Shown here: in pieces, positions 14,621 through 60,909 of the stretch | How the letters are laid out: the number at the start of each line of letters is the position of its first letter | How positions within the stretch are numbered: position 1 is the first letter of the stretch | Assembly (NCBI GenBank): GCA_017549145.1 | Contig: JAFYVM010000020.1 | Location: 1 to 64,000 of the forward strand | Direction: 5' to 3' | Length of the DNA stretch: 64,000 nucleotides | DNA from: Bacteroidales bacterium | GTDB lineage: Bacteria; Bacteroidota; Bacteroidia; Bacteroidales; UBA932 | Notes under the pieces: generated by a model | Told to the model about the DNA's origin: nothing | Database searches by the model: none | Seen by the model: the letters and a program-made list of their open reading frames with translations, nothing else | Program-made: the position numbers and the translations under genes

Positions 14621-14639
14621 AATGCGTCGAAAATTTACG

Positions 14640-14647: not shown

Positions 14648-14656
14648 CTTATTTTC

Positions 14657-14685: not shown

Positions 14686-14696
14686 CTCGGATTTAG

Positions 14697-14780
14697 GGAT
14701 TGCCGGTCAGGCCGGCAATGACGTCATCCCCGGCGGAGTCGTCCATGGCAATGGCGTCATCCCCGACCTGATCGGGGATC
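14697..14780. repeat. Cluster of dispersed palindromic repeats ahead of pgk
   Basis: Two related units are visible: GATTGCCGGTCAGGCCGGCA followed by ATGACG (14698-14722), and an inverse unit GTCATCCCCGACCTGATCGG followed by GGATC (14756-14780). A further GTCATCCCCGGC lies between them. The units are typical of the small mobile palindromes scattered through Bacteroidales genomes. Confidence 0.65.
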
Positions 14781-14818
14781 TATATGAATAAAATATTTAC
14801 AAAACATTATACAGAATT

Positions 14819-16069: not shown

Positions 16070-16097
16070 TAAGATTATCGGAAATCTTACAGATATG

Positions 16098-16135
16098 AAT
16101 CAGCGGCATTTCAGATGCCGCTGATTTATTTTTTA
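16098..16135 (+). terminator. pgk terminator
   Basis: AATCAGCGGCAT (16098-16109) pairs perfectly with ATGCCGCTGATT (16115-16126) around a 5-nt loop, followed by ATTTTTTATT. Confidence 0.85.
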
Positions 16136-16139
16136 TTCA

Positions 16140-16147
16140 TATATTTG
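16140..16147 (+). promoter_or_regulatory. -7 box of lgt
   Basis: TATATTTG lies immediately behind the pgk terminator and 21 nt before the lgt ATG. The -33 region would fall within the terminator hairpin. Confidence 0.5.
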
Positions 16148-16168
16148 CGCTCTGTTAAAATTGAGATT

Positions 16169-17047
16169 ATGTTTGAGATGTTAGCTATACATTGGAATGT
16201 CAATCCTGTTATTATTGGATTCGGTCCATTTGAACTTCGTTGGTATTCACTCCTATTTATCTCTGGATTTGTTCTTGGATGGTATATCTTCAAGTGGTTC
16301 TTCACAAGAGAGGGAGTATCTGTAAAGTTGCTTGATCCGCTTCTTTATACACTTCTTATAGGAACCATCGTCGGTGCTCGTCTTGGACATTGTCTCTTCT
16401 ATCAGCCTGACTATTATCTTGCTAGTTGGGAGGGTTTCTGGGAGATATTCATGCCGTGGAAAGGTGGTCTTGCAAGTCATGGTGGTACGCTCGCCCTGCT
16501 AGTTGCAATGTGGTGGTTTGCAAGACATTATGGTCGCAAGAATAACTTTGATTTTCTTTGGATTCTTGATCATTTGGCAATAGCTGTGTGCTTCGCTGCA
16601 ACATTCATCCGTCTTGGTAATCTCTTTAATTCTGAGATTTATGGTGATGTTACAACAATGCCTTGGGGATTCATTTTTGACCTTAGAGGTGAAACAGAAC
16701 CAAAACACCCGACTCAGATTTACGAAGCCCTTAGCTATTTCTTGCTAGGTGTGTTCCAGATTCTGATGTACAAGTACAGACTTGACAAGCTTTACAGAGG
16801 ATTCTTTATTGGAACGTTCTTTATCGGATGCTTCGGAATGCGCTTCCTGATTGAGTTTATCAAAGAACCGCAGGTGGGCTTCGAGCAGTCTATGACCCTT
16901 AACATGGGACAGCTTTTGAGTATCCCATTCGTGCTTTTGGGTATCGGCCTTCTGGTTTATAGCTATATAAAAAAGACCCCAGCTGCAGTTGTGCATCCTG
17001 AGAAGCCTAAGGCTCAGCCTACTCACTATGCGAGGGGCGTAAAGTAA
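16169..17047 (+). CDS. lgt: Prolipoprotein diacylglyceryl transferase
   Basis: 293 residues from ATG 16169 (MFEMLAIHWNVNP). About seven membrane helices are visible, with the Lgt landmarks RWYSLLFISGF, KGGLASHGG and the family signature IRLGNLFNSEIYG. It attaches diacylglycerol from phosphatidylglycerol to the lipobox cysteine of prolipoproteins in the inner membrane, serving the many lipoproteins in this window. Its 3' end overlaps the convergent AraC gene by 29 nt. Codon use is AT-richer than in neighbouring pgk. Confidence 0.95.
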   Translation: MFEMLAIHWNVNPVIIGFGPFELRWYSLLFISGFVLGWYIFKWFFTREGVSVKLLDPLLYTLLIGTIVGARLGHCLFYQPDYYLASWEGFWEIFMPWKGGLASHGGTLALLVAMWWFARHYGRKNNFDFLWILDHLAIAVCFAATFIRLGNLFNSEIYGDVTTMPWGFIFDLRGETEPKHPTQIYEALSYFLLGVFQILMYKYRLDKLYRGFFIGTFFIGCFGMRFLIEFIKEPQVGFEQSMTLNMGQLLSIPFVLLGIGLLVYSYIKKTPAAVVHPEKPKAQPTHYARGVK

Positions 17048-17969
17048 GCAAGGTCTTACGCAGACTCTGACGGTACTTCAGCGGGGAAATTCCCGTATGT
17101 TTTCTAAAGAATTTTCCAAACGACGACTGGTCTGAAAACGAAAGTTTCAGAGCAATCTGCTGTATGCTCAACTCTGGGTCACGAAGCAGTTCGGCTGCAA
17201 GTTCGGCCCTGAGTGTGGAGATAACTTTTCCTGCGGAAACTAGTGTCTTTTCCTTTACAATCAATGAGAGGTATTTCTTTGATACACAGAGTTTTTCGGC
17301 GTAGAAATCCAGTTCGACTTCCTCTTTGATGTGTGCTTGTAACAGAGTGAAGAATTCTTTCAGGATACTCTCGGATCTCTTCATGTCGATATGGTGTGAC
17401 GGCTCACCCTTGCTATATCTTCTCCACATCATATCTGCCATATCTGTCAGCAGAATATAGAAGTAGGAATAGTTCAACTCTTCTGTGAAGTAGTGCTCTT
17501 TATTGTTCAGTGAAACGATAAGGTTTCTGATGTCGAAGGCGAGTGTCCGGACGTCTTTTTCAGAGAAGATGTCACCTCCAAAACTGTGGCCGATTCGAAG
17601 TCTGAAATCAGGAGGAAAAGGGTTCCTGTTTCTGAAGATATCCTCGATGACAGTCTTGTCGGTGGCTGCTACCAGAGCCTTGAAATCAGAGTCGTATTCA
17701 ATCTCATAGATATCTGCCCAGACAGGTAGATTTGTGTATGTGTTTTTACCGTATTTGTATTCTTTTCCATTTATGATGATTCGCAGTGTACCATCCAAGA
17801 CAAGTATCATCAGATGATAATTAGGGCGTCTTGGCTTGGAGTATATGATATGGTCACCTCCTTCAATTTCGCAGGCGAAGATGTAGTTGTCAATATATCC
17901 TACATTTTTGACGCATTTTTCTCCAAAAAGGATGGCCGGACGCGTTGAATTTTGTCTTATTTCTTTCAT
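17019..17969 (-). CDS. AraC-family transcriptional regulator, divergent from an RND efflux operon
   Basis: 316 residues from ATG 17969 (MKEIRQNSTRP); the longer frame would read through its own promoter. The N-terminal half is a cupin-like sensor (GGDHIIYSKPRRPNYHLMILVLDGTLRI). The C-terminal about 100 residues hold two helix-turn-helix motifs (LDFYAEKLCVSKKYLSLIVKE and SIQQIALKLSFSDQSSFGKFFRKHTGISP), the standard AraC DNA-binding domain. Because it is transcribed divergently from the tolC-type efflux operon across 150 bp holding repeated TTTGGACCAA sites, it probably regulates that operon. The effector is unknown. Confidence 0.85.
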   Translation of the reverse strand: MKEIRQNSTRPAILFGEKCVKNVGYIDNYIFACEIEGGDHIIYSKPRRPNYHLMILVLDGTLRIIINGKEYKYGKNTYTNLPVWADIYEIEYDSDFKALVAATDKTVIEDIFRNRNPFPPDFRLRIGHSFGGDIFSEKDVRTLAFDIRNLIVSLNNKEHYFTEELNYSYFYILLTDMADMMWRRYSKGEPSHHIDMKRSESILKEFFTLLQAHIKEEVELDFYAEKLCVSKKYLSLIVKEKTLVSAGKVISTLRAELAAELLRDPELSIQQIALKLSFSDQSSFGKFFRKHTGISPLKYRQSLRKTLLTLRPSHSE

Positions 17970-17988
17970 TTTTGGTACATTTGCAGCC

Positions 17989-18020
17989 CAAATATAAGCA
18001 TTTTGGCAATTTGGACCAAA
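17989..18020 (-). promoter_or_regulatory. Promoter of the AraC-family gene
   Basis: On the minus strand TTTG (18017-18020) and TATATTTG (17989-17996) are 20 bp apart. The -33 element overlaps the first TTTGGACCAA repeat, which would allow autoregulation. Confidence 0.65.
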
Positions 18021-18040
18021 TCTATGAAATTTTGGACCAA
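18010..18040. promoter_or_regulatory. Candidate operator: two TTTGGACCAA direct repeats
   Basis: TTTGGACCAA occurs at 18010-18019 and 18031-18040, so the sites are 21 bp apart (two helical turns). The first copy extends to the dyad TTTGG-A-CCAAA. Direct repeats one or two turns apart are typical of AraC-type operators. The link to the AraC gene is inferred. Confidence 0.5.
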
Positions 18041-18119
18041 TCAAAATCGGTCAGATGGTTTGATATTTGCAAACTTTTTGCCCCGCAAACTAGAAAGACA
18101 TAAGAATTAATTATATCAG

Positions 18120-19529
18120 ATGATGAAATTTACGTTTATTTCGGTGATTGCAGCAGGAATGCTCATGTTCCCAATCTGTGCAGATGCGCAGTATAAGGAC
18201 AAGAAAGCACAGGAAGAGACACCAAAGACAGAGGCGCAGCTTATCATGGAGCAGGCGGACTCTTCTGAGATTCCTGTAGTCATCACGCTTGACCAGGCGC
18301 TCAAGATTGCATTGAGCGAAAATGTATCAGTCAAAGTGGCTGATCTTGAAATCAAGAGATCAGAGTATGCAAAGAAAGGCGCATACGCAGCTCTTTATCC
18401 TCAAATTGACCTCACAGGTTCATATCAGAGAACCCTCAAGAAGCAGGTAATGTACATGACCATGAACGGTCAGTCAATGGGTATTGAGGTCGGTAAATCA
18501 AATACAATCAATGCTGGTGCTTCAGCTGCGATGCCTATTGTGAACGCACAGCTTTGGAAGAGCCTCAAGCTTTCTGCGCTTGATGTAGAACTTTCAGTTG
18601 AAAAGGCTCGCTCTTCACGCCTTGATATGGTTACACAGGTGAAGAATGCTTACTTTGGCGCTCTGTTCGCGAAGGAGGCTTTCAATGTGTACAAGGAGGT
18701 ATATGAGAACGCAGTGACCAACCTTGAGGAGGCTCAGAAGAAATATGACTCTCAGAAGGTGTCTGAGTTCGAGCTTGTAAGAGCAAAGACTTCAGTTGCC
18801 AATGCTATCCCAAATGTTTACAATGCAGAAAGTTCTATAATCTTGGCTTTGTGGCAGTTGAAGGCTGTTCTCGGTGTTGATTTGGATATGAATATCGATG
18901 TTGCCGGTAATCTTGATGAGTATTCACAGCAGATGTTCTACGACATCCATCAGCACGACAGCGTTTCTCTTGACAATAACACAACAATGAAGCAGCTTGC
19001 TATTCAGGTGGAGCAGTTGGCTCAGAATATCAAGGTGCAGCAGTTTGCAAATATCCCGTCATTGGCTTTGGCATTCAATTTCTCTTATATGTCAATGGCT
19101 GATGATGTTTCATTCAAGGAATTCCCTTGGACTCCATATTCGACAGTAGGTCTTAGCCTTAACATTCCAATTTTCGCTGGTGGAAAACGTCATCAGGCAA
19201 TCCGTCAGGCTAAGAATCAGTATCAGCAGGTGCAGCTCCAGGTAGAGAACACCGAGCGTCAGCTTAAGATTGCTATTCGTCAGAGTCTCAACACAATGGA
19301 GATGAACATGAAGAGCTATTACGCAGCTCAGTCAGCCGTTGAGTCAGCTCAGAAGGCATATGATATCGCTGAGGCTTCGTACAAATTGGGAAGAGGAACT
19401 CTTCTTGATCTGAATGATGCGCAGCTTGCATTGACTCAGTCGCAGCTAGCAAAATCTCAGGCGGTATATAACTTCATCACTGCGAAAGCACAGCTTGAGC
19501 AGACTCTCGGAAACGACTTTGTAGAATAA
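18120..19529 (+). CDS. TolC-family outer membrane efflux protein
   Basis: 469 residues with signal peptide MMKFTFISVIAAGMLMFPICADAQ. Two outer-membrane-efflux repeats follow; the first begins ITLDQALKIALSENVSVKVADLEIKRSEYAKKGAYAALYPQI, and the second ends with the coiled-coil block AQKAYDIAEASYKLGRGTLLDLNDAQLALTQSQ. It forms the outer-membrane channel of a tripartite RND pump. It is the first gene of the operon with the adaptor 36 nt and the permease further downstream. Confidence 0.93.
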   Translation: MMKFTFISVIAAGMLMFPICADAQYKDKKAQEETPKTEAQLIMEQADSSEIPVVITLDQALKIALSENVSVKVADLEIKRSEYAKKGAYAALYPQIDLTGSYQRTLKKQVMYMTMNGQSMGIEVGKSNTINAGASAAMPIVNAQLWKSLKLSALDVELSVEKARSSRLDMVTQVKNAYFGALFAKEAFNVYKEVYENAVTNLEEAQKKYDSQKVSEFELVRAKTSVANAIPNVYNAESSIILALWQLKAVLGVDLDMNIDVAGNLDEYSQQMFYDIHQHDSVSLDNNTTMKQLAIQVEQLAQNIKVQQFANIPSLALAFNFSYMSMADDVSFKEFPWTPYSTVGLSLNIPIFAGGKRHQAIRQAKNQYQQVQLQVENTERQLKIAIRQSLNTMEMNMKSYYAAQSAVESAQKAYDIAEASYKLGRGTLLDLNDAQLALTQSQLAKSQAVYNFITAKAQLEQTLGNDFVE

Positions 19530-49569: not shown

Positions 49570-49571
49570 AT

Positions 49572-49817
49572 GATGAAACAAAGATAAGAGTCATTAGATA
49601 TCAGCTCGAACACGTTAAATGGGAGGAATTTGCAAACAAGTATCCTAACGAAGGTCTTCCTCTTGATCAAGACGTATACGATGCTGCTGAATGGAGTTCG
49701 CTTGTGGAGCTTACAGAGGTGTCAATCCGTAATGGAAGTATGCCGGTGGTTATGCCAGACTTTACCCGCGGTGAGTGGGATAAGATGGACGGATTGAAGC
49801 TATATCTTGCAGAATAG
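49572..49817 (+). pseudogene. Coding remnant without a usable start codon (about 80 codons)
   Basis: The frame ending TAG at 49815-49817 reads [18 protein letters not shown]... [21 protein letters not shown]... [21 protein letters not shown], a protein-like composition with no ATG/GTG before its middle. Just upstream ATG-ATG-AAA-CAA-AGA-TAA sits in another frame, so a frameshift near the 5' end may have broken a small gene. I do not recognise the family. Confidence 0.4.
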
Positions 49818-49819
49818 GA

Positions 49820-50035
49820 TTATTCTTCAGTCAGAATACTGGCTATCCTGGCGTGTAGACCAGGCTGAATCTTATATGAAATATTCGCAGAGAAACATGC
49901 CTGCTGTGCTTTTTGATGAGCGCGGCGGGCATTTTCCATCAGGTCATATGCTCTTACCTGAGCATCCAGTGATAATGTTCCGGAGTTTGCCGCCTCCAGC
50001 ATATCATCAGCGCATTTCGCAATCAGTTCTTCCAT
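49820..50035 (-). CDS. Small helical hypothetical protein
   Basis: 71 residues: MEELIAKCADDMLEAANSGT... AYDLMENARRAHQKAQQ... ARIASILTEE, predicted almost entirely alpha-helical with no signal peptide. A TAAGTTTG -7 box lies 20 nt ahead of the ATG on the minus strand. It ends 2 nt from the end of the plus-strand remnant, a plausible tail-to-tail arrangement. No family recognised, and it could still be a chance frame. Confidence 0.45.
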   Translation of the reverse strand: MEELIAKCADDMLEAANSGTLSLDAQVRAYDLMENARRAHQKAQQACFSANISYKIQPGLHARIASILTEE

Positions 50036-50054
50036 AACAGTCCTACATTTTTTG

Positions 50055-50062
50055 CAAACTTA
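50055..50062 (-). promoter_or_regulatory. -7 box ahead of the 71-residue frame
   Basis: CAAACTTA reads TAAGTTTG on the minus strand. No matching -33 element was found. Confidence 0.35.
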
Positions 50063-50122
50063 CTAAACACTTTCCTTTAAATCATAGATTTTACAAAGAA
50101 AAGCTCTATCTTGTAGCGGATT

Positions 50123-50806
50123 ATGAGTTGGAAGTCAATCATATTCGCAATATTGCTGTTTCTAGCGACTATCTGTGCACATGCGCAGACAGATGATCTT
50201 TTGTGGAATCCCAACCCTATTAAGAAGAAACTGCAATTTACGCTTGACAATAGTTATAATTTTGGCTTTGGTATTGAGGCTGAGGGTTTTTATAATTATT
50301 CTCCAGGTTTATTATTGATGTGGAGAGGAGGCTCTCATCGTCAGCTTTTAAATCTGACAGCCGGAGCGGAGCTTCTATATCAGAATCCTGTGAGGACAAA
50401 TCGCAGGTATCATACAATCAGCTTCGGTCAGTTCGCTCCATATGCTGGTCTGCGTATCAATTTTTTTCGACATCCAAGTGGAAGTTTATATGCTGAAGGC
50501 GATGTCTCCTATAATTTGAATTTTGAGGCTAAATATCATACTCACTTCTCTACTCAATCTCAGATTATCAAAAAGGATACATCAAGGGATTCTGTGCTGG
50601 TACGCAATCATTGGGGTTCTGCTTTTAAGGTCGGTTTTGTAGCTGAGTCTATAGATTTTGGACTCTATGCCAAATATGACTTCAAGCCATCGCTCAATCA
50701 GAAATTTATTTACGAAGAGCCTGTATACGATTATTATTCAATGGGGCCTGCCATAAATGAGAGGTGGTGTCTCGGATTATATTGTATAATATATTTTAGA
50801 CTGTAA
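50123..50806 (+). CDS. Predicted outer-membrane beta-barrel of the CHAT locus
   Basis: 227 residues. Signal peptide MSWKSIIFAILLFLATICAHAQ, then alternating hydrophobic/polar strands (KLQFTLDNSYNFGFGIEAEGFYNYSPGLLLMWRGG, FAPYAGLRINFF, SLYAEGDVSYNLNFEAKYH) and a terminal aromatic strand WCLGLYCIIYFRL, as in small outer-membrane barrels. No family recognised. It is the first of three plus-strand genes that converge on the two CHAT genes, and its stop overlaps the next start by one base (TAATG). A membrane anchor or pore of the CHAT system is possible but unproven. Confidence 0.6.
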   Translation: MSWKSIIFAILLFLATICAHAQTDDLLWNPNPIKKKLQFTLDNSYNFGFGIEAEGFYNYSPGLLLMWRGGSHRQLLNLTAGAELLYQNPVRTNRRYHTISFGQFAPYAGLRINFFRHPSGSLYAEGDVSYNLNFEAKYHTHFSTQSQIIKKDTSRDSVLVRNHWGSAFKVGFVAESIDFGLYAKYDFKPSLNQKFIYEEPVYDYYSMGPAINERWCLGLYCIIYFRL

Positions 50807-51645
50807 TGAAGAATGTTGTTCTAATATTTCTGGTCTTTGTGTTTACTGCCTGTATGGAGAATTTCGACCCTGAAAAGGATTCCAATATTGGCACCATTGA
50901 GCTGGTTGTAGATTTGGCACCGGTTTTCTCAGATATTATTGAGATCTCAGATTTTGATACAAGGCGAATACGTGTCAGGGCATATTGCTATTCTGATGAA
51001 GGTCTTCTTAAGGAGACTCAATCCTATAGTACGGTTGATGTTCATAGCCCCATAACCTTCCGGTTCCGCCATCTGGAAAAAGGATGCGAATATAAATTCC
51101 TGGCCTTTGCTGATTTATATGAGGTTGATGAACATGGATCAGAAGTAGATTGCTGGTTTCACCTTTTGACAGGTTCGATGGATAGTTTTTATATTAATAG
51201 AGTCGATTGGGTTGAGTCTTTTACAGACATCATCGGGATGGCTCAGACATCGTGTTTTCATGATAAAGTAAAATCAGAACAGCATATCCCTCTATGTCAT
51301 GCAGGAACGCTGTGTCATGTCGTTTTCACAGGGCTTGAAAATGCGATAGAGTTATATCATTCATATACGGGACTTTCGAAATTTTCTCCAACAGGGAATG
51401 AGAAGTACATTTCTTCAGCTACATATTCTGTAACAGAGACTGTTCTGGATACCTTAGAGTCAGTACAAGACTATTATTATATTATTACAGATACTTCAGG
51501 CGAGACTACTCTCAGATGTCGGATGACCCTCAGAGACGGTTCAGAACCTATAGAATATTCCAATACCATAGTTTTGACAGCCGGGAAGAAGGTCAGTATA
51601 GAAATTAACTGTCTTAATGGAGAACTGAAATGTACAGATATCTAA
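50806..51645 (+). CDS. Lipoprotein, FimB/Mfa2-like beta-sandwich type
   Basis: 279 residues. Lipobox FTAC (Cys16) followed by MENFDPEKDSNIGTIELVVDLAP. The body alternates beta strands (RRIRVRAYCYSDEGLLKE, PITFRFRHLEKGCEYKFLAFADLYEVDEHG, TYSVTETVLDTLESVQDYYYIITDTSGETTLRC, NTIVLTAGKKVSIEINCLNG) in the manner of fimbrillin-anchoring lipoproteins of the FimB/Mfa2 type (DUF1812/DUF5119-like). This resemblance is weak. It overlaps the following gene by 16 nt, so the three plus-strand genes form an operon. Confidence 0.55.
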   Translation: MKNVVLIFLVFVFTACMENFDPEKDSNIGTIELVVDLAPVFSDIIEISDFDTRRIRVRAYCYSDEGLLKETQSYSTVDVHSPITFRFRHLEKGCEYKFLAFADLYEVDEHGSEVDCWFHLLTGSMDSFYINRVDWVESFTDIIGMAQTSCFHDKVKSEQHIPLCHAGTLCHVVFTGLENAIELYHSYTGLSKFSPTGNEKYISSATYSVTETVLDTLESVQDYYYIITDTSGETTLRCRMTLRDGSEPIEYSNTIVLTAGKKVSIEINCLNGELKCTDI

Positions 51646-52397
51646 AACATATAATCCTTCCGTTAATATGTATTTTCTTCTTTTCTGCGTGTGAAAAGAG
51701 AAATGACATAGGCGTTTCAGATAATGATTCAGCCCAGTATGAATTATATGATTATTATGAGGATCAATATGGCAATAAGGGCATAGTCGCATATGTGTAT
51801 GATTATGAGGAAGATGGTGAGTTCATGCATTTAAAGGTGGTATTGTCCCTGGATGAAACTACAGCATTCTGGGGGCCTATGGGTACGACCGTTTATGACG
51901 TGAACTCCAAGTTTAATGAAGCATTTCCTAATGGACCGTTTTTTGGCTTAGTTGTAAATCAACGTGTTCATAATCTAGGTGCAGAGAACTATCCAGCCTT
52001 TGATTGGTGCTTCAAAAAGAATGGTAATGAGCAGATGATTCATTCCAGCAGCTGGATTTTGCCGACTTATATGGAGCTAAGGCGTATATTTGTTAATGAA
52101 CAAAGATTACAGACGCTCAATAGTCACCTGCTAGCCTATAACGGAACTCCAATTGCATCTCCTGATGAGCCGGATGCGTGTTATTGGTCATGTGTGGAAG
52201 ATATTAAAGACGTACTGATCTTTGCAGATGAGCAGGCTCAGCAGGAGTCGGATTACGACCCGGCTCGACGTGCAATCCCCATGACGACAGATAATATGTT
52301 TTATACCAATAAGCTATATTGGAATAAAAACAGGGAATATAAGGTCAGAGCTATAAAGTATATTTATTTTGCGCAGTCTCCCGATACGGATGATTAA
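51630..52397 (+). CDS. Lipoprotein with a DUF1566/FGE-like C-terminal part
   Basis: 255 residues. Lipobox FSAC (Cys21). The middle FDWCFKKNG...WILPTYMELRRIFVNEQRLQTLNSHL...DACYWSCVEDIK resembles the DUF1566/Lcl_C pattern (WRLPT..EL...YWSS) found in many surface proteins with a C-type-lectin/FGE-like fold. There is an acidic Tyr/Asp-rich N-terminal region (YELYDYYEDQYGNKG). The function is unknown. Its 3' end overlaps the end of the convergent CHAT gene by 4 nt. Confidence 0.55.
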   Translation: MYRYLKHIILPLICIFFFSACEKRNDIGVSDNDSAQYELYDYYEDQYGNKGIVAYVYDYEEDGEFMHLKVVLSLDETTAFWGPMGTTVYDVNSKFNEAFPNGPFFGLVVNQRVHNLGAENYPAFDWCFKKNGNEQMIHSSSWILPTYMELRRIFVNEQRLQTLNSHLLAYNGTPIASPDEPDACYWSCVEDIKDVLIFADEQAQQESDYDPARRAIPMTTDNMFYTNKLYWNKNREYKVRAIKYIYFAQSPDTDD

Positions 52398-54826
52398 TCT
52401 ATTATGACGAATGGAGCATAATAGAATGGAGATGAATACTCATCCTTGATTTTTCGGATTGCTTCAATCAATGATTTATGAGCAGTCTTGCCATTCGCAA
52501 GTCCTTCGTAAAATGACTGGGTCAGGAGCGTAGTACACATGTCATTGACTGGCCACAAAGAAACAAGCATGCTCCCGGCTCCAGCAAGACGGAAGGCTCT
52601 CTGAAAGCCTTGCACTCCGTCTCTTCCCATATCTCCCAGTCCTGTCTGGCATGCTGAGAGTACAACTAATGATGCTCCTCTAAGATCCAGCTCCGAGATT
52701 TCTTGAGCAGTAAGAATGCCGTCTTCACTACCTGGAGTCGGATAAAGTCCACGCCAAACCCTATTTGCACCTGCCATTGCAAGGCCACATCTAAGGAGAG
52801 GATGGGTTTTCAAGATATCACCTTTATAAGACCGATAATATGGGTAATAAGGTGTGTGCTCATAAGGGAGATAATAGCCATGTGTAGACAGGTGCAGCAC
52901 ATTCTTCTCTGATGGCTGAAGCTTGAGATTCTTTACATCTGCCTCTGTTGCATATATGCCGGTATGAATGCACAGACGGGTTTTTTCCTGGAACAATTCC
53001 TGGATACTCATCATTTCTTCTTCGCCACTAGGTAAGTGCACAAAATCCAAACTTGAAAATCTGGATTTCGCCATGGCAAAGTACTCTACTGCACCGAATG
53101 CTTCAAGTCTGTCAATATGATTGATTGTCTGCAGATGAGGAATGTCCTTGGTTACAGTTACCCTTCTTACCTCGGCATATTTTTCGGCAAACATCTTTCC
53201 GTCGGATTCAAGATATTCAATAGGAATGTTATGAAGAATTCCAGCGGCTGAGAAGCATATCTTGTCTTCAGGTTGAAAATGCTTTTCAAGCGGAGCCCAA
53301 ATATACTCATATAGGACCTTGAATGCATTGTCATAGACTTCGTCTGAAACTCGTGTGTCATCGTAAAGGTAATATGTCGAAATCTTTGATAACAGGACGT
53401 CCTCTGTGCATAGTGGAATATATAAAGGCGCTTTCTGGCCTTTTCTGTAGATAAATGCAGAATATTGCCACTGGTCGCCGATCTTAAAGTCAACAAATTC
53501 AACGGCAACTGTTTTTGAATCCATTTTTTCGGCAATCTTTTTCCAATCCGGGTATGCCATTTCGCTTTTCAACAACCCATAATCATAAAGTCGTTGGCGT
53601 ATTTTCCCTTCTAGTACATCTGCGGCCTCTTTAAATTGTTGAGATGATTTGTGATTAAGTCTTAGAGACTGGCTATATATCATCCTATAGCCTTTTAGTT
53701 TTTCGAAATCCTTTTTAAGAGTTGCGTCCCCTGTCTTGTCAATCATTTCTCCAAAACCCACGGATGTGTCGAAGGAGACACTCTTGGCAAACATTACTGC
53801 GTTTAATGCAGATGATATATTGTTGTTGGATGTCTTGACGTTGTGACAGAAAAGTGGGGCATCGACAAGACCCTCATTGCTTCTGCTCCAATATGACTGC
53901 ATTTCCCAAAGATTCATTCGGAACATCTGTGAAGAAAGGTAGTCTATCTTGCGTTCCAGATATTCTGAATAATGCTTCCATGCCTGCTCGGCATTTCCAG
54001 AAAGCAATGAAGACTTTGCCATACCATAAAGAAGAGATACCGTTTCCGGATGCCCGTTTCCAAGGTACCCGCTCAGCAAAGTTGCTGCTTGCTGATAAGC
54101 ATCGTATGCTGTGGCATAATCCCCGAAGCGTTCATTGACTTCTCCTTGAAGACGCTTTTGTTGAGCTGTCTGAAGTATTGTCTGTGGTACTCTTGAGTAA
54201 ACGTCATCAGAGACGGCAAGATGCTTCATTGCCTCGGATTTTTTACCCATTTTGACAAAGGCGCGAACCATTATGCGCGAGAAGTATAGTGAATCAGATG
54301 TAGTGGACGTCCTCAAAACGGTGTCTGCCTTATGCACGACCTTCTCATACCTTCCATCTTCCATATATGCTTCGAGAAGAGAGCGAGTTACAGGGTGGTA
54401 TAAATGACTATCGGCATTTAGAGTTTGTATCATTGATTCCAGTAATCCTACCGCCCCTCCACTCTCTCCTACAGCCATCATAAGGGAGGCTCTCTGATAG
54501 TCAAGCTCGGATTTCAGTATGGAATCAATCTCTGGGGCCGTCTTGATCAGCTGATCCGCTTTAGAAAGATAGTCGTTAGCTTCAGAGTATTCAGCAAGAT
54601 CAATCAATATGGATGAAAGATTTATAGCGATGATAATTCTTTCTTCATGCATCTGATCGGAGGTGAAGCTATATGCTTTCTTAAAACAGTCACGAGCATT
54701 TATAAGGTCATCCTGGGCAAGCATTGCTGCGGCCTGATTGTTATATCTGGCCACAGAATCTGTCTGCGCCATTGTAGTAATATGGGCGCAAACTATCAGC
54801 AGGATAGAAATAAATATTCCTTTCAT
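52394..54826 (-). CDS. Exported TPR-CHAT domain protein (caspase-like), second of a pair
   Basis: 810 residues. Signal peptide MKGIFISILLIVCAHITTMAQ, then about 300 residues of TPR-like helical repeats (YNNQAAAMLAQDDLINARDCFKKAYSF, NERFGDYATAYDAYQQAATLLSGYLG), and a C-terminal CHAT protease domain (about 500-810). The catalytic dyad is intact: His649 in LHLSTHGYY and Cys726 in LVVLSACQTGLGD, followed by GVQGFQRAFRLAGAGSMLVSLWPV. CHAT proteins are caspase-like peptidases or scaffolds (separase family). It begins 2 nt after its paralogue, so both are co-transcribed. Export to the periplasm or surface is predicted, unlike most CHAT effectors, which are cytoplasmic. Confidence 0.85.
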   Translation of the reverse strand: MKGIFISILLIVCAHITTMAQTDSVARYNNQAAAMLAQDDLINARDCFKKAYSFTSDQMHEERIIIAINLSSILIDLAEYSEANDYLSKADQLIKTAPEIDSILKSELDYQRASLMMAVGESGGAVGLLESMIQTLNADSHLYHPVTRSLLEAYMEDGRYEKVVHKADTVLRTSTTSDSLYFSRIMVRAFVKMGKKSEAMKHLAVSDDVYSRVPQTILQTAQQKRLQGEVNERFGDYATAYDAYQQAATLLSGYLGNGHPETVSLLYGMAKSSLLSGNAEQAWKHYSEYLERKIDYLSSQMFRMNLWEMQSYWSRSNEGLVDAPLFCHNVKTSNNNISSALNAVMFAKSVSFDTSVGFGEMIDKTGDATLKKDFEKLKGYRMIYSQSLRLNHKSSQQFKEAADVLEGKIRQRLYDYGLLKSEMAYPDWKKIAEKMDSKTVAVEFVDFKIGDQWQYSAFIYRKGQKAPLYIPLCTEDVLLSKISTYYLYDDTRVSDEVYDNAFKVLYEYIWAPLEKHFQPEDKICFSAAGILHNIPIEYLESDGKMFAEKYAEVRRVTVTKDIPHLQTINHIDRLEAFGAVEYFAMAKSRFSSLDFVHLPSGEEEMMSIQELFQEKTRLCIHTGIYATEADVKNLKLQPSEKNVLHLSTHGYYLPYEHTPYYPYYRSYKGDILKTHPLLRCGLAMAGANRVWRGLYPTPGSEDGILTAQEISELDLRGASLVVLSACQTGLGDMGRDGVQGFQRAFRLAGAGSMLVSLWPVNDMCTTLLTQSFYEGLANGKTAHKSLIEAIRKIKDEYSSPFYYAPFVIID

Positions 54827-54828
54827 TT

Positions 54829-57189
54829 TTATCTGATTTCCGGATCTAAGAGAATGAACGATTTCCAGTGAGACGACTCCGGGAACTTTGTTCGGATCTG
54901 ACGTAATGCAGCTGTGAAGGCGTCGTATTTTGACATCCCTAATTCAAAACGATTCCTATAGAAGCTGCTCATCATCAGATATGTAGCCTCATCATCCACT
55001 TTCCACAAACTCATTATGATTGATTTTGCACCAGCATTCTTGAACGCCCTCTGAAGTCCGTAGACTCCATCTTTCAGAACATCTCCAGTTGCTGTCTGGC
55101 ATGCTGACAGGACCACAAGATCAGCATCCGCAAGATTCATCAAAGAAATTTCTTTCGCTGTCACCACACCATCTTCAAGCCCGACATAATTTGAAATACC
55201 AGCCCATGCCGGTGCTGCTCCTGCCAAAAGGAAACCACTACGATACATCGGGTCTGAAAGTGCCGTCGGGTTGTGTGCAAATCGGGATTTATAGTATTCA
55301 CTAGAACTTAATGCTTCTGCTGCTGATACATAAAATCCGTGTGTTGCTACATGGATTATATTTTTCCCAAATGTCTTTGTCTTGAAGGATTCCTCATTTG
55401 CATACACACCGGTGTATAGTCTAGACTCTTTTCCTGTTACAGAGAGCAGACTGTCTATTTCGTGAACTTCTTTTATCGTGTTTGGTAGAACATGGATACG
55501 TCCGTCTTCCGAGTTTGCTCTGGTGTCCCCGGATTCAGTGTATTCTGCTAAAACAGTTTCTTCAAATCTTTTGTCAACCAGACTAGTGTCTATGACTGAA
55601 ATCTGCGATACCGCGTGGCGAAGCTGTCTTGGGAATGGATTGAATCGGGCTCCTCCATATAGGCTGGCTGAGGCATTCTCCTGGCGTGAATCATCGGAGA
55701 GTCTGATAATCTCGCGAGTGGATGACAATCGGTAAATCTTATAGTTGTCTATGATGGAAGAATTGTCTGTTTCATCCTTTCCAGTATAGAGCGGTAGATA
55801 TTCGATTCCAATCTGATGCAGAATCCCATCTGCAGAAAAATAGATTTTACCTTCGTCAGTAAGAGGAAAGTGGCGACGAATTTTTCTGTTCCAGATAACC
55901 TCACTTACCTCCCGGCTGTTCTGGTTGATATATTCGTGTGGATTATTACTGTTCTTGAGATCCTTTAAGATTTTAATGCCCTTCTTGTTGTTCCAGATAG
56001 CCACAGCTTGAGGAGCCTTCCATCCCTTTCTTAATAACAATGCCCTATATGTTCCATTGCGAGTTGCTACAAATTCTATGGCAAGGTCGTCATTTCCAAG
56101 GTGCTGCTGAACGTCTTTCCAAGTTATATCGTTGAATTGCAGATTTGTATTATGATCCTTGCCGATAAGTTTTACTATGGCCAGATCCACAGAATCAATC
56201 TGACGAGTATCTGCTCCGGTAGCTATGAGGCTATCAAGCACAGAAAGCGCTGCCTTCGCTTCCAGATTTTCTGATTTTTCAATCCTCTCACGGAACTCAA
56301 TCGCAGTATTGAGCAATAATCCTTTTGAAAAAAGACAGGCATTGTATGAGGTCCATGCATATCCTTCAGCGATTTCCTCAAAAGATGTAGAAGCATTTTC
56401 CCAATAAACATTTCTACGTGCTTCGGACATCTTGGTTAATCTGGTGCGGATAGTTTCTTTATATTCAGACGTCAGCAGATTATAACACTTTGCCATCATG
56501 CCAAACCTATTCATTTTGCCGTAAAGGTATGCCATGGTGGCTAGATTCTCGAGATAAGTCGGCGATGATAACTTTTCCTCAGTGATGATCTCGTGGGTTT
56601 CTTGTGAGTATTTCAACGCGCTGCGATAACGCTCTGCTGCCATTTCGTTGAGTGCTCGGACTCTGAGATACAATGTGTATGTCTGAGGTGTAAAACCCTC
56701 GTATTTGCCAGTGCCGTATTGCTTGAAGTGTTCTTTGCATTTGTCCAGGAATAATTCGGCTTGAGCATAGTCTCCGGCAATGTTACAAATAGCTGCAATT
56801 CTGCGTAGCAGATCTGCATATGTCGGTGTCTCCTTGCCACATCGCGTATATGCCAGATCAATTGCTTTCTGAAGAGTCTGAGTACAGACATTAAGACTAT
56901 CGATGTATGCATAGCACTCTGCTAGATGTATAAGAACATCAAGTGAGTCTGTCAATGTATGTATTTGAGAATTGTTGTATGCTTTTCCAAAATGTTCCAA
57001 GGACATTCGAAGCATAGTTTGTTTTTCAGATCCATCAGGCTCATCCAAAGCCATAGTATAAAACATATTTGCCTTGGTCACATTGGATAATGTGTCAGCA
57101 AAATAGAGCTTGTCATTCTGTTGAGAGTGAGCAGTGATTCCTAACAATAGAAATAGAACGACAGTTGATATTTCCCTAAAATGTTTCAT
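54829..57189 (-). CDS. Exported TPR-CHAT domain protein (caspase-like), first of a pair
   Basis: 786 residues from ATG 57189 (MKHFREISTVVLFLLLGITAHSQ, a signal peptide); an in-frame TTG at 57204 lies almost on the -7 box and is rejected. TPR-like helices span about 30-260 (LVIHLAECYAYIDSLNVCTQTLQKAIDL-type repeats), then a linker and a CHAT domain (about 470-786) with His617 in IHVATHGFY and Cys697 in LVVLSACQTATGD. It is clearly paralogous to the next gene (shared GVYGLQRAFKNAGAKSIIMSLWKVDDEA block). The pair may act as a heteromeric protease or as protease plus substrate. A divergent promoter drives the outer-membrane-type gene at 57264. Confidence 0.85.
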   Translation of the reverse strand: MKHFREISTVVLFLLLGITAHSQQNDKLYFADTLSNVTKANMFYTMALDEPDGSEKQTMLRMSLEHFGKAYNNSQIHTLTDSLDVLIHLAECYAYIDSLNVCTQTLQKAIDLAYTRCGKETPTYADLLRRIAAICNIAGDYAQAELFLDKCKEHFKQYGTGKYEGFTPQTYTLYLRVRALNEMAAERYRSALKYSQETHEIITEEKLSSPTYLENLATMAYLYGKMNRFGMMAKCYNLLTSEYKETIRTRLTKMSEARRNVYWENASTSFEEIAEGYAWTSYNACLFSKGLLLNTAIEFRERIEKSENLEAKAALSVLDSLIATGADTRQIDSVDLAIVKLIGKDHNTNLQFNDITWKDVQQHLGNDDLAIEFVATRNGTYRALLLRKGWKAPQAVAIWNNKKGIKILKDLKNSNNPHEYINQNSREVSEVIWNRKIRRHFPLTDEGKIYFSADGILHQIGIEYLPLYTGKDETDNSSIIDNYKIYRLSSTREIIRLSDDSRQENASASLYGGARFNPFPRQLRHAVSQISVIDTSLVDKRFEETVLAEYTESGDTRANSEDGRIHVLPNTIKEVHEIDSLLSVTGKESRLYTGVYANEESFKTKTFGKNIIHVATHGFYVSAAEALSSSEYYKSRFAHNPTALSDPMYRSGFLLAGAAPAWAGISNYVGLEDGVVTAKEISLMNLADADLVVLSACQTATGDVLKDGVYGLQRAFKNAGAKSIIMSLWKVDDEATYLMMSSFYRNRFELGMSKYDAFTAALRQIRTKFPESSHWKSFILLDPEIR

Positions 57190-57208
57190 ACATGTCAGCT
57201 TCAACTTA

Positions 57209-57216
57209 CAAATATA
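57209..57216 (-). promoter_or_regulatory. -7 box of the CHAT operon
   Basis: CAAATATA reads TATATTTG on the minus strand, 19 nt ahead of the ATG at 57189. It lies 21 bp from the divergent plus-strand box, so the two promoters overlap. Confidence 0.55.
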
Positions 57217-57237
57217 GTTTATAATTACAGATTTTGT

Positions 57238-57245
57238 TACATTTG
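57238..57245 (+). promoter_or_regulatory. -7 box of the barrel/secreted-protein operon
   Basis: TACATTTG fits TAnnTTTG and lies 18 nt before the GTG start at 57264, giving a very short leader. Confidence 0.5.
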
Positions 57246-57263
57246 CAGTAACTTCTTCATTTC

Positions 57264-57968
57264 GTGAAAATTAACCGTCATATAGTGCTGGCTTTTCTGT
57301 CTGCTTTTCTTTGCTTTCCCTTAGCGGCATTCGAGAAGCCGACTGTTACGCCTCTGCAGCAAACTAAAAGTAAGAAACCTCCTTATGCTGTCGGTGTTTT
57401 CGTAGAAGGAGGGAAATTCTCTCATGTATATGATACAGATGCTTCGTCATTCAATCTCAATGGTTTTGCTATCAGCGGGGGTGGTTATGGAAGAATTTAT
57501 TTCCATCGTAAGCAAGAGATGTCACCGAAGTGTTATGCCCAAGCGGAATTATCATACAAGTATAACAGGTTTTCCGATGAGGACATTCTACTTGAGAGAG
57601 ACTTTACAGGCTCCTTGCACTATATAACACCGGCAGTTATGTTAGGCACATCTTTTCCAGAAGAAATCTTTTCGCTGGAGTTCACCATGGGTGTGTCTTT
57701 GGATATACTGACGGATTTTAGAGGAGCACCGCAGAGTCACATCTATGGTGGCCTAAGTAAGGAGTGTATGAACCGTTTCTGTCCAAAATTCAAAATAGGC
57801 TTCTCTCTTGCTTCATTTATGAGTGTCACTTTTGATATACCGCTCAATGAAGGAGTGATAAATCTGGATAAGTACACATATTACAATCGAGAGAATATCA
57901 AGACTTCCCCTTCCGCTAATGTATCACTTAGAATAATGCTTCCTGTCAGTGGAAGCAGTCATAAATAA
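57264..57968 (+). CDS. Predicted outer-membrane beta-barrel, second of the CHAT locus
   Basis: 234 residues starting at a GTG (57264) that begins the signal peptide MKINRHIVLAFLSAFLCFPLAAF. Strand-like segments (YAVGVFVEGGKFSHVYD, GFAISGGGYGRIYFHRKQ, CYAQAELSYKYNRFS, LHYITPAVMLGTSFPEEIFSLEFTMGVSLDI) and a final strand SANVSLRIMLPV suggest a small outer-membrane barrel, similar in length to the 227-residue protein at 50123. No named family recognised. It heads a two-gene operon divergent from the CHAT genes; the next gene starts 10 nt downstream. Confidence 0.55.
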   Translation: MKINRHIVLAFLSAFLCFPLAAFEKPTVTPLQQTKSKKPPYAVGVFVEGGKFSHVYDTDASSFNLNGFAISGGGYGRIYFHRKQEMSPKCYAQAELSYKYNRFSDEDILLERDFTGSLHYITPAVMLGTSFPEEIFSLEFTMGVSLDILTDFRGAPQSHIYGGLSKECMNRFCPKFKIGFSLASFMSVTFDIPLNEGVINLDKYTYYNRENIKTSPSANVSLRIMLPVSGSSHK

Positions 57969-57978
57969 AACATAGCTT

Positions 57979-58944
57979 ATGAAGACAAGAACATTTATGG
58001 TCATAGTGCCAGTTATCATTTTTTCTTTAAATAGTCTTTGTTTGTCCGCTCAGGATGCCAAAGTACAGGAAACTATATCTCTTCAGGTGAAAAACAGTCA
58101 GGAAATGAGCCTCGCCGTAGGTGAGAGCTCTGCCTTACTTGGACAATCAGCAACGCGTGGCTTTCTTAGCACAGCGGTTGACTTTGCTGCCAACCTTGCT
58201 TCCAGAGCGATCTTTTCAATATTTGATAATATGAATAAGGTTAGGACTGCCGAATGGGCAACCCCGGCGGTTAAGGATTATTTCTATGAAGCTCCTTCAA
58301 CTTCAGGCGCTTTGGACCCTTCTGGAATGAAGTTTTCAGGTATTAAGATGTCCAGAGATATGATTGCAGCAGATACCAGCAGCGTCTTTTATCTTGAGTG
58401 TAGTGTTCCGTCTGATAATCAGTCGGTTACGGACTTTATTACGAACACAAGATTCACTATGACATTGGATTCGCTGGCTATTGACCTGTCAAAGGTAAAA
58501 GCAAAGTACACTCATAAGAAACAGATATCGATAGAAATTGATATTACTTTAAAATCAACATGGATTGATGATGCCATGACCGTTCATAAGGATCAGGAAC
58601 TCGGATTATTCCGAATATCGATTCCTAACCTCAAGTACGATCCTAAAAACCCAGTGGTTACCTTTGGCGGAGAAGCCGCTAAGTCAATGATGGCAGGATT
58701 CAGTTTCTTCCCACCTCGATCGCATGGCGCTTTTATTAGCGGAGGAAAGTATAATGAATGTTGGAGTGCAGGAGAATTTGAAGTTCAGATGACCGTAAAG
58801 GAGTCAACTGCAAGACCTAAAAAGGCAGCTGCTGTATATGCATACGAATACCTGCAGAAGGCTCTTCCGACCTCCCTTTCTCAGATGAGTGTCAACGAAA
58901 ATATCGTCGGCCCAAGCGTTATGAAGATCATTAAAGGATATTGA
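57979..58944 (+). CDS. Secreted protein of unknown function in the CHAT locus
   Basis: 321 residues with signal peptide MKTRTFMVIVPVIIFSLNSLCLSAQ. The body begins with a stretch resembling a small-residue amphipathic helix (GFLSTAVDFAANLASRAIFSIFDNMNK), then beta-rich sequence (FYLECSVPSDNQSVTDFITNTRFTMTLDSLAIDL, KKQISIEIDITLKSTWIDDAM, SFFPPRSHGAFISGGKYNECWSAGEFEVQMTV). I do not recognise the family. It is co-transcribed with the barrel gene, and its 3' end overlaps the convergent FecR-like gene by 14 nt. Confidence 0.6.
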   Translation: MKTRTFMVIVPVIIFSLNSLCLSAQDAKVQETISLQVKNSQEMSLAVGESSALLGQSATRGFLSTAVDFAANLASRAIFSIFDNMNKVRTAEWATPAVKDYFYEAPSTSGALDPSGMKFSGIKMSRDMIAADTSSVFYLECSVPSDNQSVTDFITNTRFTMTLDSLAIDLSKVKAKYTHKKQISIEIDITLKSTWIDDAMTVHKDQELGLFRISIPNLKYDPKNPVVTFGGEAAKSMMAGFSFFPPRSHGAFISGGKYNECWSAGEFEVQMTVKESTARPKKAAAVYAYEYLQKALPTSLSQMSVNENIVGPSVMKIIKGY

Positions 58945-59776
58945 TGCTGAACGGAACCCGGTTCTTTGGAGCCGGGATCGCATGTTCATGCTTTTCCATC
59001 ATCGGCATAATGGCTTCCAGTAGAATATGCATGCTGAAGTTTGTTGTGTCTTCCGAAGCAATCACGGCAATTTTGTCTCCATTCTGCTTTGTATAAGGCA
59101 GAATGGTTTCGCTATTGGCGTTAAGGATTATGTAATTATTTCCGATGGCAGGCTCTGGGTCTAGGAATTCCCCTTTTAAGGCAAGTAGGTAGCAATGCAC
59201 ATTCTTGTTGCCGTAATTTGTGAGAATTATATTTCCCCCGTCATAGTCCGTCGCTACCATTAGACCAGATGAAATGTTGTTTATGGTTGAAAAATCAAGC
59301 ATGCTTCCACCAGCCTTTTCCACTATACACCTGATGAAGTCATCTGCGTCATGAACGGTTGATACGGATACATCTCTGTGTGTTGTTCCGTCGCGATCAT
59401 ATCTGACATTGACCATCACGGTCTTGGAGGCGTTGACCATATCTTTTACGAAACCGGAAAAATTCTTGAAATCCCCTGTCGGCTTGTCTTTGGCCTTGTC
59501 GGAAACAAAACGGGTGAGGTTGAATTGTTCGGACAACATATACACAGTATAGGTGTTTTGAGTGCCGGTTTCTCTTAATACTACTTCAGAAAGAGGCTTG
59601 CTGGTGTTTTTCAGTATAGCATTTTTGGTAAGGGTGGAATTGATGCATAGTTTTTCCCAGCCCTTGCCATAATCGACGAGGCACTCTCCTCCGGAAATAT
59701 GTACTACTTTATATGTCTGAGCACTTAATTCAAGTGCGCATATCATTAAAACCAACGAGAAAATAATCTTACGCAT
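58931..59776 (-). CDS. Secreted FecR-like/unknown protein downstream of the CHASE2 gene
   Basis: 281 residues with signal peptide MRKIIFSLVLMICALELSAQ. Residues about 21-65 (YKVVHISGGECLVDYGKGWEKLCINSTLTKNAILKNTS) resemble the start of a FecR-type domain (value-setting beta sandwich); the rest is unrecognised and ends in a hydrophobic VPFSINIL. Its start overlaps the CHASE2 gene by 31 nt, so the two are tightly coupled. A periplasmic partner of the CHASE2 sensor is inferred from position. Confidence 0.55.
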   Translation of the reverse strand: MRKIIFSLVLMICALELSAQTYKVVHISGGECLVDYGKGWEKLCINSTLTKNAILKNTSKPLSEVVLRETGTQNTYTVYMLSEQFNLTRFVSDKAKDKPTGDFKNFSGFVKDMVNASKTVMVNVRYDRDGTTHRDVSVSTVHDADDFIRCIVEKAGGSMLDFSTINNISSGLMVATDYDGGNIILTNYGNKNVHCYLLALKGEFLDPEPAIGNNYIILNANSETILPYTKQNGDKIAVIASEDTTNFSMHILLEAIMPMMEKHEHAIPAPKNRVPFSINIL

Positions 59777-60909
59777 AAGTCCTTGAGTTTTATATAAAGA
59801 TTAAAACCTAATTCAATAAAGCCGATTCCAAGCAGGGCGTAAACAACCCTTACATAATAACCGCACGAAACGAAGATTACATAACAGAGGAAAATCGCCG
59901 AAATTATCAGTAGTGTTTGAAGAATAGGGCAGAAGATGGACGTCCACTCATTCTTCTTCATAAGCCTGATAAATGGTAGGAACAGAAAGATGGCAAAAAA
60001 GGCCAGCACCCATGCGCCGAACTCTGACATTGTGTCTACGTAGCGTCCGTTAAGCATTGTCGCTAATGTCATTGCGTGAATGTCCACTCCCGGCATTCGT
60101 GCATTGACTGCAGTTACATGCTTGTCTGAAATATCTTCACGGTCTCCTATAAGGATGATCTTATCTTTCAGAATATCCAGATTTGATGAAATAGCTTCTG
60201 CAGAGAATACAGAATAAGAAGACAAGCTGTAATTGATGTACTCGTCATTTTGTGCTCTCTTCATCGCCATTGTGTAGTCAGACTCAGATATGACTTTCAG
60301 CAGTGCCATGTCAAAGTTGTCCACCTGTTTCCCATCAAAGGTAAGAGTCTTGGAAAAAATCCTGCATGTTTCGTTGGCTCCGGAGGTTGCCAGATTTACA
60401 AAGCCGGAGTTTGGACTCGGGGTGTCCATATAGAAAGATGTCTGGAGAGTGGCAAATGTCTTGTCTTCTCCCAGAATTTCATCTTTAAGCATGAATGGGG
60501 ACACGACGTGAGGAAGCGATGTGATTTTACTAAGGATGCTGTCAGCATATTCTGATTTCCTTTCATCAAAAAAAACATCCAGACCAATGGCTTTAGGACC
60601 AGCAGAAACAATGCTTTTGAAGAGATGAGCTAGAGAATCCCTGTTATATACATCCTTGATATCGACTATGATGATCTGATTGCTGATTGGTCGGTAAGGT
60701 TTTTTCTGTCCGATGCGGTTGCTTATGGAAAAATAAGTGTCCATCAGGTTATACTGCTCCCTCATCGTCTGAATCGTATTGAATCGTGAAAAGGAAAGTG
60801 GGAAGAGTACAAAGATCAATACTATGACCATAGTTACAGCTGTTGCCGAGAGATTCTCGACAATAGACAGCAGGAAATGCTTTAGGTGAATGCCTGTTTT
60901 TTTGCTCAT
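59746..60909 (-). CDS. CHASE2-domain membrane sensor without output domain
   Basis: 387 residues. One N-terminal membrane helix (about 21-40), then a CHASE2 extracytoplasmic domain (about 45-285) with its hallmarks IIIVDIKDVYNRDSLAHLFKSIV, PKAIGLDVFFDERKSE, DKIILIGDREDISDKHVTAVNARMPGVDIHAMTLATMLNGRYV, and three C-terminal membrane helices (about 297-372). CHASE2 usually feeds a cytoplasmic kinase, cyclase or protease. Here only about 15 residues (LKDLCVRLFSRWF) follow the last helix. It probably senses a periplasmic signal and signals within the envelope, possibly to the CHAT proteins. Confidence 0.85.
   Translation of the reverse strand: MSKKTGIHLKHFLLSIVENLSATAVTMVIVLIFVLFPLSFSRFNTIQTMREQYNLMDTYFSISNRIGQKKPYRPISNQIIIVDIKDVYNRDSLAHLFKSIVSAGPKAIGLDVFFDERKSEYADSILSKITSLPHVVSPFMLKDEILGEDKTFATLQTSFYMDTPSPNSGFVNLATSGANETCRIFSKTLTFDGKQVDNFDMALLKVISESDYTMAMKRAQNDEYINYSLSSYSVFSAEAISSNLDILKDKIILIGDREDISDKHVTAVNARMPGVDIHAMTLATMLNGRYVDTMSEFGAWVLAFFAIFLFLPFIRLMKKNEWTSIFCPILQTLLIISAIFLCYVIFVSCGYYVRVVYALLGIGFIELGFNLYIKLKDLCVRLFSRWF

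Follow-up and report, generated by a model that had tools for sequence, protein, structure and literature searches.

Background

Bacterial relatives of the caspases have been studied mostly as cytoplasmic effectors of cell death or defence, and the TPR-CHAT protease of Craspase is cytoplasmic and bound to the gRAMP effector. Here we describe a block of nine genes, at positions 50,123 to 60,909 of a 64,000-nucleotide (nt) stretch (hereafter the window) of contig JAFYVM010000020.1 from a Bacteroidales bacterium of the UBA932 lineage (GCA_017549145.1; an assembly of 2.35 Mb, 83% complete, in 78 contigs). We propose, with a probability of roughly 58%, that these genes encode an envelope signalling and proteolysis module, in which a CHASE2 protein and a periplasmic partner control exported proteases of the caspase fold. 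The two proteases of the block share with Craspase a TPR region and a CHAT domain with a His/Cys dyad; they differ in carrying predicted signal peptides, and no gRAMP or Cas partner family was matched by any of the nine window proteins (Pfam, PADLOC).

The closest described link between a clan-CD protease and CHASE2 is a fused metacaspase-CHASE2 protein of Trichodesmium erythraeum, the protease part of which is placed in the cytoplasm in the available excerpts of two papers (PMC3501461, PMC2853523). That protein is a single chain with a protease predicted to be cytoplasmic, whereas the window has separate genes, a protease predicted to be exported and a CHASE2 protein lacking an output domain. 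CHASE2-bearing orthocaspases are also used in a cell-death model, and in the available part of that review CHASE2 was not found in its own 98 sequences (PMC7475262).

Three further systems, each known to us from partial texts, place CHASE2 beside secreted or outer-membrane proteins. The BiofilmReg operon of Burkholderia contaminans encodes a LysM-FecR protein with a CHASE2 kinase (PMC5192318), so that here too a secreted FecR-domain protein lies beside a CHASE2 membrane protein; that CHASE2, however, carries a PAS domain and a histidine kinase as its output, accompanied by a response regulator, and the excerpt names no protease, while the window CHASE2 is output-less. In magnetotactic bacteria MtxA occurs with a CHASE2 cyclase, and under standard conditions the mtxA deletion can hardly be told from wild type (PMC4439547). 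MtxA is likewise a secreted protein adjoining CHASE2, and the family of secreted proteins that commonly neighbours CHASE2 in Bacteroidia (described below) resembles it in its C-terminal TPR matches and, as read from an alignment, in an Ig-like domain; the output of the MtxA system is a cyclase, though, and MtxA_C was matched by only one of 26 members of the Bacteroidia family, weakly (0.034). Finally, the NsrA barrel of Sinorhizobium meliloti, a predicted outer-membrane protein, works with the CHASE2 cyclases CyaD1, CyaD2 and CyaK to detect an external protein (PMC13001267); its signal leads to cyclic AMP with no protease named in the excerpt, in contrast to the window set with its exported CHATs.

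In the open-licence literature searched (subscription papers lie outside it), no paper joins CHASE2, 'CHAT domain' and FecR. The available parts of PMC8195603 and PMC11854122 mention neither the gene set nor a CHASE2-CHAT pairing, and in that of PMC2853523 'CHAT' is an author's name, not the domain. Both the domains and the pairings are known, and their combination, topology and distribution are without description in that literature.

Results

Nine open reading frames (ORFs), the same nine that a codon-scored gene caller picks, form four short operons, as an earlier sequence-only reading of the window had stated: bar1-lip1-lip2 on the forward strand, CHATb-CHATa on the reverse, bar2-sec1 on the forward, and the CHASE2 gene followed by that of a FecR-like protein on the reverse. 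Two convergent pairs with overlapping 3' ends, also claimed there, are present, lip2 and CHATa overlapping by 4 nt (52394-52397) and sec1 and the FecR-like gene by 14 nt (58931-58944). A contig scan with the window CHASE2 protein as the single query, which reaches close relatives only, returned one relative, a goat-cecum Bacteroidales metagenome-assembled genome (MAG; L121, JAFQFD010000030.1). All nine genes are found in L121, their order within the block and their orientations relative to one another unchanged, and with overlaps of exactly 4 and 14 nt as in the window; the L121 block adjoins the same M3-peptidase gene, is inverted as a whole, and is followed beyond its far end by a stretch with no significant match to the window. 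Because all nine recur together in L121, the genes form a real unit, more than chance would give. The neighbourhood is conserved in the wider sense as well, as pairing of CHASE2 with a clan-CD protease recurs across the order (see below).

The block does not look newly acquired. Divergence at four-fold sites, near saturation, is 0.62-0.86 in the block and 0.61-0.68 in the flanks, five genes of which are 60-88% identical between the window and L121, and the guanine-plus-cytosine (GC) content of the block tracks each host. Similar divergence in block and flanks together with host-like GC argues for long residence, and the block would fit a long resident with faster protein evolution rather than a recent import. 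A mobile cassette was rejected because the GC is host-like, because scans of viral contigs, which reach close relatives only, brought up neither a sec1 nor a CHASE2 relative, and because plasmids gave no relative of CHASE2. A phase-variable invertible cassette is not supported either, with no inverted repeats pairing the block ends: none of at least 14 nt with up to 2 mismatches pairs the two flanks in either species, nor does any of the 25 longest of 30 repeats found. What is seen is a single difference in orientation between two assemblies, both of them drafts. At ten loci of the genus marked by a close relative of the GH92 gene in the right flank, phmmer found none of the nine block genes, and the M3-peptidase neighbour is also absent; there is no clean empty site among these ten, two of which are short stretches and from which one further good relative (G1102) was left out. 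In the window a 553-base spacer (49570-50122) separates the M3-peptidase gene from the block, the corresponding gap in L121 being 13 bases.

These observations bear on the possibility that the block is a cell-death or defence module, in which CHASE2 would detect surface attack and the exported CHAT pair would trigger self-lysis through sec1 or envelope proteins, analogous to intracellular caspases and CHAT-gasdermin systems. Clan-CD proteases are often death effectors, and the CHASE2 gene is sporadic, being found in 2 of 32 genus genomes; both facts favour such a role. So does the published model, in the part available, that ties CHASE2-bearing orthocaspases to programmed death (PMC7475262). 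The apparent long residence of the block argues against it, as do the PADLOC scan, in which none of the nine proteins matched, the lack of a gasdermin-like Pfam match among them and the absence from viral contigs of close relatives of sec1 and CHASE2. Export, moreover, would separate the proteases from phage targets, which are intracellular, and we regard a death or defence role as quite improbable.

The two proteases, CHATa (52394..54826, reverse strand, 810 amino acids [aa]) and CHATb (54829..57189, reverse strand, 786 aa, 2 nt upstream), are the only CHAT matches in the window's assembly. They match PF12770 at E 3.1e-47 (161.9 bits) and 2.2e-41 (142.7 bits), respectively, against a cut-off of 24 bits, and are 57% and 50% identical to their L121 counterparts (16067-18487 and 13653-16058). 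For CHATb, the ATG at 57189 is a more plausible start than the TTG at 57204. The catalytic residues are intact (H649/C726 in CHATa, H617/C697 in CHATb), and both His and Cys are kept in 28 of 29 aligned CHATs, the remaining one being truncated with the region missing. Signal peptides and lipoboxes were called throughout by a simple hydropathy and motif heuristic with inspection by eye; by this measure both CHATs carry signal peptides in both species, which agrees with the earlier description of two adjacent exported TPR-CHATs with intact dyads and argues against a cytoplasmic location. Export had also been presented there as exceptional for CHAT proteins, and that part did not hold: 24 of 28 CHAT ORFs among the loci read pass the heuristic (two of the other four are truncated), so that predicted export appears to be the norm among the loci examined. 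A PDB sequence search gave only 8rot at E 0.17 for CHATa and nothing useful for CHATb.

The CHASE2 protein (59746..60909, reverse strand, 387 aa; L121:9980-11134, 57% identity) matches PF05226 at E 2.5e-22, above cut-off. Hydropathy alone places hydrophobic segments at 20-38, 299-317, 329-347 and 355-373, consistent with the membrane protein first called, and the layout is one N-terminal helix, an extracytoplasmic CHASE2 domain, three C-terminal helices and a 14-residue tail; the L121 protein has the same four segments and one more at 123-141. The window protein contains no output domain (cyclase, kinase or GGDEF), and since the chain ends 14 residues past the final helix there is no room for one. 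In the searches of the order and the class, above-cut-off CHASE2 matches fall in open frames of 364-552 aa, while most hits listed in the phylum search are at least 700 aa long.

We sampled CHASE2 at three levels, counting the window's genome in each and reading regions of up to 20 kb per locus: CHASE2 was found in 4 of 149 family genomes with the window protein as query, and with PF05226 in 13 of 295 genomes of the order and 33 of 325 of the class. A clan-CD protease lay near CHASE2 at 4/4, 8/12 and 6/32 loci, respectively. L084 was dropped, no CHASE2 ORF having been called there, two sub-threshold class matches were left uncounted, and two class loci, L091 with a CHAT and L103 without, were reassigned to the window's order. 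In that order CHAT or Peptidase_C14 thus occurs within 2.6 kb of CHASE2, 0-3 genes away, at 13 of 18 loci; the paired loci span nine families, and among the five unpaired ones two are on contigs of ~5 kb and two come from one genus. With at least 343 CHATs in 295 order genomes and 221 C14 proteins in 149 genomes (an undercount, as the caspase of L065 is not among them), we estimate that a protease would neighbour CHASE2 this closely by chance at roughly 1 in 100 loci, or a few in 100 at the most. At all four family loci the protease is a CHAT within 2.6 kb, and the window's genus has a further such locus (L127). CHASE2 is also near a CHAT in L041, L043 and L050, which were found via CHAT and are hence uncounted; the family sample had missed their CHASE2, later seen by profile, and could likewise have missed CHASE2 lying far from a CHAT.

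CHAT and caspase alternate at the same place beside CHASE2, which points to proteolysis as the shared function. For the nearest proteases the heuristic predicts a signal peptide in 10 of 11 caspases and in 6 of 7 CHATs, the exceptions being L058, with a doubtful start, and L038, which is truncated. A regular-expression search of 12 caspases recovered both catalytic motifs from 11 of them (L090:11432-14542 has the His motif only). The C14 assignment is confirmed by Pfam at L059, L061, L062, L065, L058, L066, L068, L104 and L090:11432, comes from the genome search at L057, and at L076 and L090:7037 from a custom profile only. Several of these caspases are fused to varied repeats of the Sel1, WG and WD40 types (L058:10774-14286, L065:11197-13647, L066:11722-13464, L068:2267-5671, L104:10986-14057), as if a recognition part had been swapped.

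Beyond these samples, 158 plasmid records have a CHATb relative, and three of them, taken from among the matches listed, were examined. On a plasmid of the cyanobacterium Tolypothrix sp. PCC 7712, a CHAT match just below cut-off (23.6 vs 24 bits) is fused ahead of CHASE2. The fusion is followed by a neighbour whose DUF928 match falls below threshold, by three CHATs with a signal peptide according to the heuristic, and by a caspase of the C14-DUF4384 type, which fails the heuristic and whose start looks Tat-like by eye. Parts of the same kinds, namely CHASE2, signal-peptide CHATs and a C14-DUF4384 caspase, are found together there. A Flammeovirga plasmid has a CHAT and no annotated CHASE2, and a Nostoc plasmid has a CHAT next to a DUF4384 protein, again with no annotated CHASE2.

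It could be argued that the window merely brings together, by chance, a CHAT-sec1 system and a CHASE2 system, with bar1-lip1-lip2 as third cargo. Pairs of sec1 and CHAT do occur without CHASE2 in the stretch read at L040, L042 and L055, and most loci outside the order have CHASE2 with a secreted neighbour and no protease. Yet the full set is intact in L121 despite the inversion, a CHAT lies within 2.6 kb of CHASE2 at all four loci of the family sample and in L127, and the two domains are, if weakly matched on the CHAT side, fused in Tolypothrix; we consider a chance assembly very unlikely.

Some loci show arrangements of their own. The CHASE2, neighbour and CHAT genes of L127:6130-11228 and L037:10796-15894 are 95-99% identical between genomes of two genera, reflecting either recent transfer or MAG contamination. 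In genus g409 no protease was found at ten CHASE2 loci (L078, L081, L082, L084, L085, L088, L094, L096, L097, L102), nine of which, all except L078, have the common secreted neighbour; that of L097 lies between saccharopine dehydrogenase and MutS (Pfam). At eight family CHAT loci (L044, L045, L048, L049, L051, L052, L053, L054) a gene of ~190 aa and a one-helix protein often stand beside CHAT, and most, not L045, also have a small signal-peptide C14 caspase. Five of the ~190-aa genes were scanned against sigma-70 regions, with a match above cut-off in L045, weak ones in L048 and L044 and none in L049 and L053, which suggests possible sigma/anti-sigma control of exported caspase-CHAT pairs at these loci.

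The putative partner of CHASE2, the secreted FecR-like protein (58931..59776, reverse strand, 281 aa; 43% identical to its L121 counterpart), is encoded by a gene that overlaps the CHASE2 gene by 31 nt. A same-strand neighbour lies downstream of 45 among 49 CHASE2 genes, and in 30 cases it belongs to one homologous secreted family, mostly of ~300 aa; profile searches add further members, some divergently placed. The family has TPR matches at the C-terminus and, by reading of its alignment, an N-terminal beta domain of FecR-like appearance with an Ig-like region in the middle, which is how MtxA is described. The window protein fits this slot in position, size and signal peptide. It matches the family at E 2e-8 with the signal peptide included and at E 0.19 without it, outscores the best shuffle (6.0 bits; 1000 made, 672 scored), and is aligned to the family by hhalign at E 6e-4 with a probability of 28%. 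A model built from an alignment that included the common neighbour family has block predicted local distance difference test (pLDDT) values of 81-95 over residues ~21-90, a confident beta domain, and low values after ~100, and the C-terminal half of the window protein differs from that of the family.

The FecR label itself lacks Pfam support: the window protein has no match to FecR (PF04773), and FecR is absent from the 22 families matched by any of 26 neighbour-family proteins at E up to 1. A DUF4384 domain in the C-terminus, suspected by eye, is not claimed (hhalign probability 0.5%, E 0.11). Foldseek with the model returned nothing at E ≤0.001. The N-domain resembles the cell-surface anchoring domain 5ix9, of an RTX adhesin, at a level that is not significant (E 0.81, probability 0.96, template-modelling score 0.71 by target).

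The secreted protein sec1 (57979..58944, forward strand) is the most conserved of the nine, at 70% identity to its L121 counterpart. It has relatives in 4 of 149 family genomes, each near a CHAT gene, with a 4-nt overlap in L040 and L042 (one genus) and a distance of 7 nt in L055; in the window sec1 is one gene from CHAT on the opposite strand, and L121 makes a fifth case. A PDB sequence search with sec1 gave chance-level rows only. As its relatives sit near CHAT, whereas those of lip1 and lip2 turned up only in L121 among the gene calls searched, sec1 is likelier than the lipoproteins to be a CHAT substrate or adaptor.

Pfam families above cut-off are confined to the two CHATs and CHASE2; the remaining six window proteins have none, NCBIfam gave nothing above cut-off, and there was no Rfam match, so that an RNA element is not supported. 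The two lipoproteins of the earlier reading are supported, as predictions, by lipobox motifs in lip1 (50806..51645, forward strand, 279 aa; L121:19218-20129, 41% identity) and lip2 (51630..52397, forward strand, 255 aa; L121:18484-19230, 58%, with the same 4-nt overlap). It had also called two outer-membrane barrels, of which secretion is supported by the heuristic and the barrel label is weaker than it was given. For bar1 (50123..50806, forward strand, 227 aa; L121:20087-20737, 45%), which has a predicted signal peptide, the label comes from sequence impression and a sub-threshold OmpW match (E 0.052); for bar2 (57264..57968, forward strand, 234 aa; L121:12901-13542, 31%, the least conserved of the nine), which has no Pfam match, it comes from impression only, and L121 bar2 has no signal peptide at the called start.

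These genes raise a further possibility, surface remodelling like Lap adhesin control, whereby the proteases would release or mature lip1, lip2 or fibres and barrels, and CHASE2 and its neighbour would only gate proteolysis. The convergence of lip2 and CHATa with a conserved 4-nt overlap fits this, as does the low identity of the lip and bar proteins (31-58%) next to that of the five flank genes, and the weak fold resemblance of the FecR-like N-domain to 5ix9 also points this way. That resemblance is not significant, however, and the gene calls searched show neither lip1 nor lip2 next to any other CHAT; we hold this explanation to be unlikely.

Discussion

The envelope signalling and proteolysis module proposed at the outset draws on results that were computed, namely the nine-gene unit, its conservation, the export signals (by heuristic), the intact catalytic residues, the absent output domain and the recurrent CHASE2/clan-CD pairing. 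The unit and its predicted envelope placement are well supported, and here the sequence-only reading stands in part, with further corrections: CHASE2 has no output, the module is wider, with alternating CHATs and caspases, and FecR membership lacks support. From these results we infer sensing by CHASE2, control of the proteases and cleavage by the CHATs. CHASE2 would be anchored in the inner membrane, its sensor domain facing the periplasm, and, having no cytoplasmic output, would probably act sideways with the co-encoded periplasmic FecR-like neighbour. On sensing a ligand or a state of the envelope, the pair would release or activate both CHATs, and these, in the periplasm or at the outer membrane, would cut exported partners. 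The strongest candidate for a substrate or adaptor is sec1, and the surface parts whose state changes may be the lipoproteins and the possible barrels.

Several findings weigh against this interpretation. All nine genes together are known from two MAGs, relatives of bar1, lip1, lip2 and bar2 were found only in L121 among the gene calls searched, and the sporadic CHASE2 gene is also absent from ten other genomes of the genus. Among the 30 class CHASE2 loci that lie outside the window's order, a clan-CD protease was seen in the stretch read at only 5 (one genus accounts for 9 of the other 25), so that CHASE2 with its secreted neighbour does not require a protease. The sec1-CHAT cases are not all independent, as two of the four genomes are of one genus. 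Finally, the mature FecR-like protein scores 7.6 bits (E 0.19) against the neighbour family, compared with 8.4 bits for a reversed decoy and 10.6 for an unrelated ORF, its L121 counterpart scores 4.5 bits, within the shuffle range, and homology of the window protein to the common CHASE2 neighbour is not shown.

Conclusions

Beyond this locus we suggest tentatively, at somewhat less than even odds, an undescribed class of envelope signalling, in which a CHASE2 protein that has lost its output, together with a secreted partner, would control exported CHAT or Peptidase_C14 proteases interchangeably and relay the signal by proteolysis outside the cytoplasm. Exported caspase relatives would here be tied to a membrane sensor unable to signal inwards alone, with a CHASE2-protease pairing that reaches across nine families of the window's order and one cyanobacterial plasmid. 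If this is true, the output-less CHASE2 would gain a job, and the exported CHATs and caspases of gut Bacteroidales, so far unexplained, would acquire a sensor, a candidate for their target and a wiring that can be tested.

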